NCBI RefSeq assembly: GCF_000876655.1
Contig: NZ_JYCN01000014.1
Location: forward strand, 124,001 to 188,000
Source of the DNA: Arthrobacter sp. SPG23
Lineage (GTDB): Bacteria; Actinomycetota; Actinomycetes; Actinomycetales; Micrococcaceae
Length of the DNA stretch: 64,000 bases
Direction: 5' to 3'
Positions within the stretch are counted from its first letter, which is position 1, and every line of letters begins with the position of its first letter. A model generated the notes under the pieces. The model was given only the letters and a program-made list of their open reading frames with translations, ran no database searches and was not told the DNA's origin. Below are positions 6,241-38,482 of the stretch, piece after piece. Both the position numbers and the translations under genes were made by a program.

Positions 6241-6434
6241 CAAAACTAAACAGGAGGATCAACCGCATCACGCATTCGCGGTCCTCGGTAGTGATTCCCG
6301 GGAACGGCTTCGAAGAATGAAGCCCGGCCCGTGGGTCTCGATCGATGACCGGGTGCAGTGCAGGCCAGTAGACAGATGCTGGACTGGGTTGATGCGGCTG
6401 GACTTCCGTTAACCAAGAAACGGAGGTGACTCTC
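6241..6434 (+). promoter_or_regulatory. pnp 5' leader, candidate Actino-pnp RNA
   Basis: The 190 bases between the rpsO terminator and pnp hold no ORF but several stem-loops: CTTC/GAAG around 6308-6325, a CCCGG/CCGGG helix around 6325-6355, and CCAG/CTGG around 6365-6385. A structured RNA called the Actino-pnp motif is known upstream of exoribonuclease genes in Actinomycetales. Position and structure fit, but I did not match its covariance model. Confidence 0.45.
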
Positions 6435-34926: not shown

Positions 34927-35871
34927 ATGGACGAAACCCTTGCACCCGCCCCTGACCGTACACTCCAGGGGCTGAGCGGCCTGGCCTTCTCCAAGGGCCA
35001 CGGCACCGGCAACGATTTCGTGCTCGTCGCCGACCCCGAGGCCACCTGGCCCATTGCCCCCGAGCAGGTCGCGGAACTCTGCGACCGCCACCGCGGCATC
35101 GGCGGCGACGGGCTGATCCGTGCCGTGCCCTCGCGTTTCCTCCCCGAAGGGCGTGAGCTGCAGGCGGTCCACCCGGATGCCGAGTGGTTCATGGACTACC
35201 GCAACGGCGACGGATCCCTGTCGGAAATGTGCGGAAACGGCGTGCGGGTGTTCGTGCACTTCCTCGTCGCCCAAGGCCTTGTCCGCCTCGACGCCGGCGA
35301 TGCCCTGACAATCGGAACACGCGCGGGCGCCAAGACAGTGGTGCGGACCGACGACGGCTACGCCGTGGACATGGGCCCGTGGGAATTCATTTTCCCGGGG
35401 GAGGCCACGGCACGGGCCATGGACTCGCTCGTCACAGCCGACGGCCTGGAAGTGCCGCGACCGGCCCTGTCCGTCAGCATGGGGAACCCGCACACCGTGG
35501 TGGCCCTGGCGGAACTCAGCGAGCTCGAGGCAACCCAGCTGTTCAAAGCACCGCACGTGGACCCGAAGCCGGCCAACGGCACCAACGTCGAGTTTGTCGT
35601 CCCGTCCGAGCCGCTGGTCCACGACGGCGTCGGGACCATCACCATGCGCGTCCACGAGCGCGGTGTGGGGGAGACACAGTCCTGCGGCACCGGCGCCTGC
35701 GCCGCCGCCGTTGCCATCCGCCACTGGGCCGGGCAGGGCGCTCCGGACGCCTGGAACGTCAAGGTGCCCGGCGGCGTCGTCGGCGTTAAGTTCTTTGCCG
35801 GGCCGGAAGGCCACGAACACGTGGAACTCAGCGGCCCGGCAGTGATCGTCGCTAGCGGGACGCTTTCCTGA
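34927..35871 (+). CDS. dapF: diaminopimelate epimerase
   Basis: PLP-independent epimerase that makes meso-DAP for peptidoglycan and lysine. The 314-residue protein has both active-site cysteines: S-E-M-C-G-N-G-V-R near residue 100 and E-T-Q-S-C-G-T-G-A-C-A-A near residue 257. It opens with F-S-K-G-H-G-T-G-N-D-F. TAACCT (34915-34920) lies 6 bases before the ATG (leaderless). Its last 20 bases overlap the end of the convergent methyltransferase gene. Confidence 0.95.
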   Translation: MDETLAPAPDRTLQGLSGLAFSKGHGTGNDFVLVADPEATWPIAPEQVAELCDRHRGIGGDGLIRAVPSRFLPEGRELQAVHPDAEWFMDYRNGDGSLSEMCGNGVRVFVHFLVAQGLVRLDAGDALTIGTRAGAKTVVRTDDGYAVDMGPWEFIFPGEATARAMDSLVTADGLEVPRPALSVSMGNPHTVVALAELSELEATQLFKAPHVDPKPANGTNVEFVVPSEPLVHDGVGTITMRVHERGVGETQSCGTGACAAAVAIRHWAGQGAPDAWNVKVPGGVVGVKFFAGPEGHEHVELSGPAVIVASGTLS

Positions 35872-36466
35872 CCCGGAGGATCCTGAAGGACTTTGACGTG
35901 CTTTCCCGGGTGACGGTGAAGCTGCTGTCCAATTCGGCGCCCAACCAGCGTTGCAGCGAATCCGACCCCAGGTTCTTCTGGACCACCAGCCAGGCGGATC
36001 CGCCGGGAGCCAGCCGGGGGAGCCACAGCAGCAGCAGGGAGTGAAGCTCGTCCTTGCCGATCCGGATGGGCGGATTCGACCAGATCGTGTCGAAGCGGAG
36101 GCCGGGATCAACGTCGTCCGGCAGGCTGGCCGTCACGTTGTTCAGGCCCAGCAGGCCGGCATTTTCGTTCGTCAATGCGACACAGCGCTCGTTCACGTCC
36201 ACGGCGTAGACCTGCGAATGGGGTGCCCGCAGGGCCATGCTCAGGGCAATCGGACCCCAGCCGCAACCGATGTCCAGCAGGTTGCCCTGGGGCGAAGGCG
36301 CCGGCACGTCGGCCAAAAGTACGGCAGTTCCCTTGTCGATACCGTCCGGGCTGAAGATGCCGCTGGACGTCTGCAGCCTGCGCGTTTCACCGGCAAGTTC
36401 CACGGTGAGCGGTTTGCGGGTGAACGGCCCGGCAGGTTGGGCGCTGAAATAATGTGCAGACTCCAT
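35852..36466 (-). CDS. class I methyltransferase, small-domain (RsmC/RlmG-like)
   Basis: A 204-residue SAM-dependent methyltransferase. Motif I is LLDIGCGWGPIAL (about residues 63-75). Acidic motif II is Y-A-V-D-V-N. The N-P-P motif in S-N-P-P-I-R (about 130) is typical of N2-guanine or N6-adenine rRNA methylation, as in RsmC. The target is not shown. On the minus strand TAATCT (36475-36480) is 8 bases before the ATG. It faces away from the hflX leader. Confidence 0.85.
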   Translation of the reverse strand: MESAHYFSAQPAGPFTRKPLTVELAGETRRLQTSSGIFSPDGIDKGTAVLLADVPAPSPQGNLLDIGCGWGPIALSMALRAPHSQVYAVDVNERCVALTNENAGLLGLNNVTASLPDDVDPGLRFDTIWSNPPIRIGKDELHSLLLLWLPRLAPGGSAWLVVQKNLGSDSLQRWLGAELDSSFTVTRESTSKSFRILRVRKASR

Positions 36467-36551
36467 AACTCGCCAGATTAGTTGCCGCGCGCGCCGATGG
36501 GAAACGAGGACGCGAACGGGGCACGGTGACCGGTCTGCTAGTGTTTAATCC

Positions 36552-36572
36552 ATGTTCTTGATCTTTGAGTAG
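36552..36572 (+). CDS. putative leader peptide MFLIFE
   Basis: ATG-TTC-TTG-ATC-TTT-GAG then TAG. TAGTGT ends 7 bases before the ATG, the leaderless pattern seen at many genes in this window, so the transcript would begin at this codon. The F-L-I-F core resembles macrolide-stalling leader peptides, which often have I-F-V-I, but this resemblance is short. Not known to be translated. Confidence 0.45.
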   Translation: MFLIFE

Positions 36573-36688
36573 CCGGCACGGGCCACCGCCCGTCCCGCAG
36601 CGACGCAGGTATACACCTTCCGCTCAGTGCGCCGTCCTGCCGTGATTCTCCGGCACGACGTCCCGCCCGTCCTACTTGGAGTCCAGCA

Positions 36689-36703
36689 ATGCTGATCATC
36701 TGA
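36689..36703 (+). CDS. putative leader peptide MLII
   Basis: ATG-CTG-ATC-ATC then TGA, with GGAG (36678-36681) 7 bases upstream, a proper ribosome site for such a short frame. It lies 225 bases before the hflX ATG and just before a TGCGC/GCGCA hairpin (36706-36730). It may be a second sensing peptide or chance. Confidence 0.35.
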   Translation: MLII

Positions 36704-36880
36704 CCCTGCGCATCCCTTCGGGACCGGCGCACCCTCCGCAAGGCCGCCTGCCTCCCAGGCACCTCACTTACCGCCCGTACCGCCGCCCGCTGCACATCAG
36801 CCGCCGGCACTCCAGGAGCCCGAATGACCCATAGTCGTCAGCCCAGCGCGAATACCGCCCCGCAGACAAACAATCAGCAT

Positions 36881-36886
36881 TATTCT
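36881..36886 (+). promoter_or_regulatory. -10 box of a proximal hflX promoter
   Basis: TATTCT lies 28 bases before ATG 36914 and 18 bases before its AAAGGAGA site, so it could start a short hflX mRNA without the leader peptides. No clear -35 box is visible. Confidence 0.45.
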
Positions 36887-36913
36887 GAAAGTGTCGAATC
36901 TTCAAAGGAGAAC

Positions 36914-38482
36914 ATGACCAACCAGCCCAATACCGGATCAGATTCAGCCTCCCAGGACATGAGTCCTGAGGAAATCCAGGCTGTCATCGACCGGATTCTG
37001 TCCAAGGATGTCCCTGCCCGAGCCGCCGGATCCGCCCCTGAGAATCCGCGCGGAGTTCTGGGCTCGGCCCAGGCGATTTCCCGCCAGGACAGCGAACACA
37101 GCATCTTCGACGGGGACCAGCAGGACCTCGAGGAACGACGGGCCCTGCGCCGTACGGCCGGCCTTTCCACGGAACTCGAAGACGTCACCGAGGTTGAGTA
37201 CCGGCAGCTGCGCCTCGAGCGGGTGGTCCTGGCCGGCCTCTGGACCGAGGGCACCCTCGCCGACGCGGAAAATTCGCTGCGCGAACTTGCCGCGTTGGCC
37301 GAAACCGCCGGCTCGGAAGTCCTCGACGGCATCGTCCAGCGCCGCGCCAAGCCCGACCCCGGTACCTTCCTCGGCTCCGGCAAGGCCCAGGAGCTCAAGG
37401 ACATCGTGATGTCCACCGGCGCCGACACCGTGGTGGTGGATGCCGAGCTGGCACCTTCACAGCGTCGCGGACTTGAAGACATCGTGAAGGTCAAGGTCAT
37501 TGACCGCACGGCCCTGATCCTGGACATCTTCGCCCAGCACGCCAAGAGCCGCGAAGGCAAGGCCCAAGTAGAGTTGGCGCAGCTTGAATACCTGCTCCCG
37601 CGCCTGCGCGGCTGGGGCGAATCCATGTCCCGCCAGGCCGGCGGCCAGGTGGGCGGCGCAGGCGCCGGCATGGGCTCCCGCGGTCCCGGTGAAACCAAGA
37701 TCGAACTGGACCGGCGCCGGATCCGTACCAGGATGGCCAAGCTGCGGCGCGAAATCGCCGCGATGAAGCCGGCCCGGGAAACCAAGCGGGCCAACCGCCG
37801 TCGTAATTCCGTGCCTTCAGTGGCCATCGCGGGCTACACGAACGCGGGTAAGTCCTCATTGCTGAACCGGCTGACCGACGCCGGAGTCCTGGTGGAGAAC
37901 GCACTGTTCGCCACGTTGGATCCCACGGTCCGAAAGGCCGAGACGGCGGACGGCCTGGGCTACACCCTGGCTGACACCGTGGGCTTCGTCCGGTCGCTTC
38001 CCACGCAGCTGGTGGAAGCATTCCGCTCCACCCTCGAGGAAGTGGCCGATTCGGACCTCATCCTGCACGTGGTGGACGTTTCGCATCCCGATCCGGAGGG
38101 CCAGATCGCAGCGGTCCGGGCCGTGTTCAGCGAAGTGGATGCCCGCAAGGTTCCGGAAATCATTGTGCTGAACAAGGCCGACGCCGCGGATCCCTTCGTG
38201 GTGGAACGCCTCAAGCGGCGCGAACCCCGCCATGTGGTGGTTTCCGCCCGCACCGGGCAGGGCATCGCCGAGCTCCTGAAGGCGATCAGTGAATCCATCC
38301 CGAGGCCAAGCGTCAAGATGGAACTGCTGATTCCCTACAACCGCGGGGACCTGCTCAGCAAACTCCACGAAACGGACGCTGAAATCCTTCGCCTGGACCA
38401 TGAAGAGGAGGGCACACGCGCCCTCGTCATGGTGCGCGAGGGGCTCGCCGCTGAACTGGAATCCTTCATCAGCAATGTCTGA
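36914..38482 (+). CDS. hflX: GTPase HflX (ribosome-splitting factor)
   Basis: GTP-binding protein that splits stalled or drug-blocked 70S ribosomes; in some actinobacteria and Listeria, homologues give macrolide/lincosamide tolerance. The 522-residue protein has an N-terminal ribosome-binding domain (about 90-230) with R-R-A-K-P-D-P-G-T-F-L-G-S-G-K, a coiled-coil linker with G-P-G-E-T-K-I-E-L-D-R-R, and the G domain: GYTNAGKSSLLN, D-T-V-G-F, N-K-A-D. ATG 36914 has AAAGGAGA 3 bases before it; ATG 36824 would add 30 low-complexity residues. The helicase gene overlaps its end by 8 bases. Confidence 0.93.
   Translation: MTNQPNTGSDSASQDMSPEEIQAVIDRILSKDVPARAAGSAPENPRGVLGSAQAISRQDSEHSIFDGDQQDLEERRALRRTAGLSTELEDVTEVEYRQLRLERVVLAGLWTEGTLADAENSLRELAALAETAGSEVLDGIVQRRAKPDPGTFLGSGKAQELKDIVMSTGADTVVVDAELAPSQRRGLEDIVKVKVIDRTALILDIFAQHAKSREGKAQVELAQLEYLLPRLRGWGESMSRQAGGQVGGAGAGMGSRGPGETKIELDRRRIRTRMAKLRREIAAMKPARETKRANRRRNSVPSVAIAGYTNAGKSSLLNRLTDAGVLVENALFATLDPTVRKAETADGLGYTLADTVGFVRSLPTQLVEAFRSTLEEVADSDLILHVVDVSHPDPEGQIAAVRAVFSEVDARKVPEIIVLNKADAADPFVVERLKRREPRHVVVSARTGQGIAELLKAISESIPRPSVKMELLIPYNRGDLLSKLHETDAEILRLDHEEEGTRALVMVREGLAAELESFISNV

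Follow-up and report, generated by a model that had tools for sequence, protein, structure and literature searches.

A conserved six-codon open reading frame at the apparent 5' end of the long hflX messenger of Arthrobacter, probably an antibiotic sensor

The gene of the ribosome-splitting GTPase HflX is preceded in Arthrobacter sp. SPG23 by a six-codon open reading frame (ORF), MFLIFE followed by a stop codon, which probably serves as a built-in antibiotic sensor turning on this ribosome-rescue gene. Comparison of hflX leaders among relatives revealed that the ORF is conserved, that it lies at a fixed spacing from a promoter-like box, that its amino acids are under selection, and that it is followed by hairpins, a C-rich leader and a second promoter-like box. 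We lean towards the explanation that drug-dependent arrest of the ribosome on MFLIFE controls the long hflX transcript by relieving its attenuation. Coordinates are those of the window, i.e. the whole stretch of 64,000 nucleotides that was analysed.

Results

The hflX locus

35852-36466, minus strand: methyltransferase, MTS domain family, divergent from hflX
36905-36910, plus strand: AAGGAG, Shine-Dalgarno sequence of hflX ATG 36914
36914-38482, plus strand: hflX, encoding the ribosome-splitting GTPase HflX (NCBIfam TIGR03156, 438.9 bits, cut-off 216.75)

The match to TIGR03156, far above its cut-off, agrees with an earlier note on this DNA, which had placed hflX downstream of a regulatory leader; the product also carries the Pfam domains GTP-bdg_N, GTP-bdg_M and MMR_HSR1. 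The leader, positions 36539-36913, lies between the divergent methyltransferase gene and hflX. Because two in-frame starts 30 codons apart, 36824 and 36914, are candidates for hflX, the leader as delimited earlier ends at the second start, and the candidate at 36824 lies further upstream.

A small ORF conserved throughout the genus

36536-36544, plus strand: putative distal promoter, extended -10 TGCTAGTGT (hexamer TAGTGT, 36539-36544)
36552-36572, plus strand: six-codon ORF MFLIFE-stop, putative drug-sensing arrest peptide, apparently leaderless (ATG-TTC-TTG-ATC-TTT-GAG-TAG)

A search of 101 genomes of the genus, that of SPG23 included, gave a match in each, and hflX was anchored in the fetched regions. 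All 101 hflX leaders carry the small ORF at the equivalent place, one of them in shortened form. The ORF was found by pattern or known offsets in 100 of them; the remaining one, missed by the pattern, was read by eye (L093: MILNFQ, 7 nt after TAAGAT) and is absent from most of the genus counts, and one leader (L031) duplicates another (L001). By genus we mean the window's own group and not all named Arthrobacter, since Arthrobacter-named records more distant in hflX, e.g. A. subterraneus, A. cheniae, H41 and Leaf234, lack the hexapeptide ORF. Among named records, the nearest relatives come from Arthrobacter, Pseudarthrobacter and Paenarthrobacter, and the 17 named records L177-L192 and L250 all have the ORF. 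A record titled Vibrio cholerae strain 35D (L198, WNZI01000016.1) holds an Arthrobacter-like hflX with 80% identity and is probably mislabelled or contaminated.

MFLIFE is encoded in 73 of 100 genus leaders (window included) by eight DNA variants. The other peptides are MFLNFK (6), MILNFK (6), MFLNSK (3), MILISK (3), MILIFK (2), MFLVFE (2) and, once each, MFLNFR, MFLTFK, MILIFQ, MFIILV and the shortened MFLI. Of the 100 leaders, 17 have Asn or Thr as residue 4 and 24 have Lys, Arg, Gln or Val as residue 6; L3 is kept in 98 of 99 small ORFs. Codon 2 is TTC in 87/99 and never TTT, and the stop codon is TAG in 78/99, as in the window, and TAA in 21/99. The leader in which the ORF is cut to MFLI (L052, genome G051) retains the second hairpin described below and may represent a natural loss. 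An exact MFLIFE pattern occurred in 13 of 245 genomes of the family, once each and all in the same genus, and hflX lies downstream at all 13 loci; a looser leaderless MFLIF/MYLIF pattern, run over 296 genomes of the class, gave three hflX leaders and one match elsewhere.

The hexamer TAGTGT is followed after 7 nt by ATG 36552, as the earlier note had described, and this distance is exactly 7 nt in 99 of 100 genus leaders and 6 nt in one. It stays constant while the distance from the small ORF to the 36914-type start ranges from 272 to 508 nt. The -10 consensus of the genus leaders is tCTGcTA..cT, with no conserved -35 element seen among them. From a -10 box lying 7 nt before the ATG we infer that the long hflX transcript is leaderless, beginning at or within 1-2 bases of ATG 36552.

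Codon changes were counted by parsimony on a tree from about 700 columns of flanking sequence in 99 genomes, the shortened L052 being excluded. Of 54 inferred changes, 34 were synonymous and 20 changed the amino acid, against an expected synonymous share of 13-16% when all changes are considered and of 33% when only transitions are; given the size of the tree and the parsimony counts, the P values for the excess over the transition-only expectation are rough (8e-6; 1.8e-3 without the stop codon). Switches between TTG and CTG at codon 3 were inferred 13-14 times, and those between TTC and TTT at codon 5 and between TAG and TAA at the stop nine times each. This pattern indicates that the amino acids of the small ORF are under selection within the genus. 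Selection on the peptide sequence and a position ahead of a resistance or rescue gene are both features of drug-responsive arrest leader peptides, and both were found for this ORF. Together, the data indicate that the MFLIFE ORF pointed out in the earlier note is real and conserved.

These substitutions bear on two other explanations. The conserved 5' stretch might act only as a promoter-proximal DNA or RNA element that is not translated, which would fit the strong nucleotide conservation of the adjoining RNA elements and the preference for TTC over TTT at codon 2. The predominance of synonymous changes, the retention of a six-codon frame and stop in 100 of 101 leaders (one shortened) and the presence at equal spacing of tiny ORFs of different sequence in other genera argue against such an element, which we consider improbable. 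Amino-acid attenuation, by which the Phe, Leu and Ile codons would sense charged tRNA, draws on the two Phe, one Leu and one Ile among the six codons. TTG and CTG are read by different tRNAs, and the repeated switching between them at codon 3, the nature of the downstream gene, a ribosome rescue GTPase, and the different residues of the peptides in other genera make this mechanism very hard to credit.

Resemblance of MFLIFE to MsrDL

The earlier note had likened the peptide to stalling leaders with an I-F-V-I-like core, which was near the mark; MYLIFM of MsrDL, the leader peptide of streptococcal msrD, is closer to MFLIFE. According to Fostier et al. 2023 (PMC10314930), MsrDL, which ends with UAA, arrests the ribosome at its stop codon with erythromycin and azithromycin and is unresponsive to telithromycin, tylosin and spiramycin; replacing L3 or I4 by Ala abolishes induction, Ala at any other position except Y2 weakens it, and a UAG or UGA stop lowers it. 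Both are hexapeptides with an immediate stop and identical M1, L3, I4 and F5; the drug-sensing residues of MsrDL, L3 and I4, are present in MFLIFE, the difference Y2F falls on the dispensable residue, and in both systems the product of the controlled gene acts on drug-stalled ribosomes. The hexapeptide with L3, I4 and a stop after residue 6 was found in the window and, as MFLIFE, in the 73 leaders counted above. MFLIFE differs from MsrDL in M6E, in an apparently leaderless ORF, in a stop that is mostly TAG, in the window as well, where MsrDL prefers UAA, and in a downstream gene that is hflX and not an ABC-F gene. MsrDL, moreover, works through a Rho-independent terminator covered by the arrested ribosome, and a simple consensus scan of 36300-37000 found no terminator-like site.

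Because MFLIFE is closer to MYLIFM than to that core, arrest would be expected at the stop codon, and lincomycin need not act on it, since MsrDL answered erythromycin and azithromycin only among the drugs tested. The literature searched (titles and abstract openings, with few subscription papers covered) gave no prior description of a leaderless hflX leader peptide, and MFLIFE gave unrelated matches only.

Tiny ORFs at hflX in other genera

All 61 genomes sampled from the family, which represent 32 genera, contain hflX; the first anchoring missed 14 of the 61, and 31 fetched loci were re-anchored by coordinates. Requiring an ORF of 3-16 codons whose ATG lies 6-8 nt past TANNNT, we found a leaderless tiny ORF in 24 of 58 hflX leaders outside the genus, from 14 of 31 other Micrococcaceae genera, and none in the other 34. 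Dinucleotide shuffles gave a mean of 1.19 and at most 4 (100 rounds), and the reverse strand gave 1. The distance between TANNNT and ATG in family leaders was 7 nt in 18, 6 nt in 7, 9 nt in 4 and 2-3 nt in 3, with none at 4, 5, 8 or 10-15 nt. When trinucleotides 6-8 nt past TANNNT were compared, ATG occurred in 24/58 leaders and 12 others in 0-13 (TGA 13, ATC 8, the rest 0-4), a less clean control than the shuffles; the count for TGA probably stems from the many ORFs that open with ATGA. The methyltransferase gene and hflX are 377-579 nt apart in 100 genus leaders. In other genera the interval is 170-560 nt where a tiny ORF is present (31 leaders), and among 56 leaders without one it is 81-249 nt in 48 (the rest up to 1368 nt), so that leaders lacking the ORF are usually compact.

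Outside the family, no leaderless tiny ORF was found in 52 hflX leaders; 21 of them came from the best-scoring loci of the same order and 31 from named records, not all of which are labelled below the rank of order. Looser rules (GTG allowed, 5 nt spacing, up to 20 codons) gave two among 40 leaders of the wider class, drawn from 77 matched genomes outside the order, and we take these two as chance. Conservation of the two ORFs, which the earlier note had wanted checked in related Micrococcaceae, thus holds for the MFLIFE ORF, present throughout the genus and with other peptides in the 24 leaders elsewhere, and fails for MLII, which was found in the five closest genomes only.

The peptides of the other genera include MTLIIL, MTLFFV, MTYL, MTYPYL, MTFFHS, MTYLFFV, MTYMFFL, MWIPLS, MWIYLR, MWITYL, MLSFL, MLIFL, MLLFI, MFLFT, MFTL, MFTS, MKNK and MKK, and the longer MILTQRVYTRIRFVG, MILTQRVLIRIRFVG, MWIHLTYSRPRG and MWIRPTQYARPRFAA; named examples are MRLFK of Sinomonas, MFLMYL of Micrococcus lylae, and MTLIYS and MTFIFV of Glutamicibacter. 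We know of no arrest peptide that MKNK, MKK or MFTS resembles. All four peptides longer than seven residues in the family sample, which come from two genera, contain RxR.

R/K-x-R/K is an erythromycin arrest motif (PMC12121999), and MFLIFE contains none. The hflXr leader rli80 of Listeria monocytogenes encodes a 14-residue RLR peptide, responds to lincomycin and has an intrinsic terminator (PMC6310831). With this leader and with the Bacillales uORFC-6-1 motif (PMC8632094), the hflX leader shares a short ORF ahead of an hflX-type gene; the longer peptides of the two Micrococcaceae genera have RxR in common with Listeria, and antibiotic-dependent attenuation is known in Listeria and proposed here. 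The Listeria system differs in its 14-residue RLR peptide, its intrinsic terminator and its second copy of hflX.

Such variety among peptides raises the alternative that the small ORF is a general translation monitor rather than a drug sensor, so that any slow ribosome would raise hflX and the peptide would matter little across genera. Peptides as different as MKNK and MKK are in line with this, and so is toiL-topAI of Escherichia coli, whose small ORF answers five or more drug classes by arrests that lie at different positions (PMC12121999), an MsrDL-like erythromycin arrest at the ORF end being suggested. Selection on the amino acids within the genus and the near-invariance of L3 are more than a mere roadblock would need, and we think a general monitor unlikely.

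Hairpins behind the small ORF

36574-36597, plus strand: stop-adjacent hairpin, CGGCACGGGC(loop)GCCCGTCCCG
36592-36633, plus strand: second hairpin, conserved, built on a core of GCGACGCAGG (36600-36609) and CCTTCCGC (36616-36623); its asymmetric internal loop is fixed

Folding with RNAalifold was done on 57 of the 100 leaders, 340-390 nt from hflX and cut before the second start. Six inner pairs of the stop-adjacent hairpin were kept in 45-56 of the 57, and a ribosome arrested at the stop codon of the small ORF would cover its first arm. Another clade, e.g. L070, seemingly has a hairpin of unrelated sequence at the same place, as judged by eye.

The core pattern of the second hairpin, GCGAYGCAGG ... 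YTTCCGC with 7-41 nt between, occurs in 96 of 100 genus leaders, the match in L023 using a displaced second half. Among the pattern misses, L026 and L060 were matched by a hairpin model (E about 0.001), L033, like L093, was matched weakly (E 0.12-0.14), and L074 was unmatched. An alignment of 58 out of 83 distinct segments has 16 invariant columns. That the leader holds hairpins ahead of hflX, as the earlier note had it, was borne out; the compensatory changes that it proposed to look for were absent from the second-hairpin core, whose nearly constant pairs yield no covariation. The outer stem of three pairs shows some compatible change and is paired in 87% of cells. A search of 36500-36960 with Rfam covariance models gave no match at E up to 1. 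Elsewhere in the window an Actino-pnp leader RNA was identified at 6277-6353 (Rfam RF01688, 55.5 bits).

The second hairpin is possibly a protein-binding RNA. Control might then run mainly through binding of HflX or another protein to 36592-36633, as feedback, with the small ORF as a modulator. The hairpin core hardly varies within the genus and is specific to hflX leaders: across 31 genomes the pattern gave 24 matches at hflX and 12 elsewhere, versus 22 for the reversed control. The hairpin model found nothing in tiny-ORF leaders of other genera, an absence that stays weak because the model also missed the genus members L070, L072 and L085, which have a long apical stem. We give such feedback control a small chance.

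Composition, start sites and pairing of the leader

36573-36823, plus strand: C-rich, G-poor leader (C 45%, G 25%), candidate Rho loading region
36689-36703, plus strand: MLII-stop ORF with GGAG upstream, not conserved, probably not functional
36813-36826, plus strand: CAGGAG Shine-Dalgarno (36813-36818) and upstream in-frame hflX start ATG (36824-36826)
36881-36886, plus strand: -10 box TATTCT of the putative proximal promoter, 33 nt before ATG 36914

Stretches rich in C and poor in G are typical of Rho loading regions. The excess of C over G in the leader was reached by 2 of 2550 comparison segments of 250 nt (both strands, 50-nt steps), and C exceeds G in all 100 genus leaders. Both segments lie at 401-700, the sole stretch of the window found to be more C-over-G-skewed than the hflX leader.

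MLII, followed by a stop and preceded by GGAG, is present as the earlier note described and was proposed there as part of the control. Four of the five closest leaders have MLII and one has MLIV, and in the other 95 genus leaders none of the ORFs behind a GGAG-type site contained LII, a count that covers LII forms only. We rejected MLII as a second sensor on account of this confinement and regard it as lying outside the device.

The upstream in-frame start with a Shine-Dalgarno sequence occurs in 89 of 99 genus leaders (L044, with a guessed hflX start, was excluded from the counts of starts and proximal boxes), and 8 of 100, one with a guessed hflX start, lack a 36824-type start. In 92/99, TATTCT lies 33 nt before the 36914-type ATG; the remaining 7 have TATTCT or TATCCT no more than 2 nt from this position. 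In a family set made of the 61-genome sample and named records, with leaders identical in the last 60 nt merged and start-less ones skipped, the upstream start with Shine-Dalgarno was found in 19 of 33 leaders with a small ORF versus 11 of 52 without, and a proximal TANNNT box in 30 of 33 and 38 of 52, respectively. A longer HflX starting at 36824 is possible, though the 30-codon extension lacks a coding signature, with no excess of third-position variation (entropy 0.48, 0.57 and 0.53 in 88 leaders). The proximal -10 box lies inside this extension, and two HflX isoforms may result.

RNAalifold pairs codons 2-3 of the small ORF (UUCYUG) with the CAGGAG before 36824, each of the six pairs being kept in 53-57 of 57 leaders. 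A single-sequence fold of the window's leader pairs the small ORF with the 36914 site instead (z -2.57, 1/100 shuffles as stable). Both pairings are weakened by per-genome duplexes, in which ORF-Shine-Dalgarno pairing is weak or missing in several clades, and by the commonness of C before AGGAG (4/9 in the window, 15/17 in 16 named loci including hflX). The earlier proposal that arrest changes leader folding is plausible and has partial support: the stop-adjacent hairpin is conserved, and pairing of the small ORF with a Shine-Dalgarno sequence is not kept in every clade. A precedent is toiL, whose small ORF pairs with a downstream Shine-Dalgarno sequence that drug arrest frees, Rho terminating transcription otherwise (PMC12121999); toiL differs in its gene and phylum, and the pairing in the hflX leader is short and not universal.

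Discussion

Drug-dependent arrest on MFLIFE, the explanation towards which we lean, could work as follows. hflX would be transcribed from two promoters, the proximal one (36881) yielding a short, plain messenger and the distal one (36539) a messenger that opens at or near the ATG of the small ORF. A ribosome would start on the leaderless ATG and make fMet-Phe-Leu-Ile-Phe-Glu. Without drug it would terminate immediately, leaving the C-rich, hairpin-filled leader untranslated, and the long transcript would be attenuated through Rho, through masking of the hflX Shine-Dalgarno sequence, or both. A macrolide in the exit tunnel would block release at the stop codon, as in MsrDL; the arrested ribosome would lie over the small ORF and over the first arm of the hairpin next to its stop, the hflX start region would be freed, the long transcript would proceed, and HflX would then split drug-stalled ribosomes. 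The leaderless start, the drug arrest, the direction of control and the choice between Rho and the Shine-Dalgarno sequence are what we infer from the elements described above.

Several observations support the drug-arrest reading: the conserved start and spacing, the selection on amino acids and the near-identity with MsrDL; the RxR peptides of two other genera, together with the drug-controlled Listeria hflXr leader; the tiny ORFs in 24/58 leaders of other genera against 1.19 in shuffles, and the C-rich leader; the toiL precedent for ORF-Shine-Dalgarno pairing plus Rho; and the location ahead of hflX of all 13 exact-pattern matches in the 245 family genomes. Against it stand Asn or Thr at residue 4, where Ala abolished MsrDL induction, Lys, Arg, Gln or Val at residue 6, where Ala reduced it, and the prevalence of TAG, MsrDL working best with UAA. 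So do MKNK, MKK and MFTS, which are unlike arrest peptides, the genus member shortened to MFLI, the weak or missing ORF-Shine-Dalgarno pairing in several clades, and the 34/58 leaders of other genera that have no ORF.

More tentatively, as a picture that we hold to be possible rather than likely, Micrococcaceae may use fast-evolving leaderless arrest peptides, read from the transcript's first codon onwards, to sense ribosome-targeting drugs, with the hexapeptide of the genus convergent with MsrDL or descended alongside it and with RxR used in two genera. The sensor of many leaders, among them most of those in the window's genus, would then also select a longer HflX with about 20-36 extra N-terminal residues, unavailable from the proximal promoter. 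Mycobacterial HflX is linked to macrolide-lincosamide resistance, and N-terminal extensions matter for splitting, according to a review (PMC12493154); mycobacterial hflX differs in its link there to the regulator WhiB7, and the word "leader" is absent from the main text of the review.

If the drug-arrest reading is true, a leaderless messenger would here carry the drug-sensing arrest peptide, and a ribosome would encounter the sensor with the very first base of the RNA. The roughly twenty natural tiny peptides, which share a fixed position before a single gene, would offer a panel for finding which few residues cause a ribosome, when a drug is present, to refuse release or elongation. It would also suggest that in common soil actinobacteria the response of HflX to antibiotics runs through the gene's own leader, either in addition to the WhiB7 link of mycobacteria or in its place.
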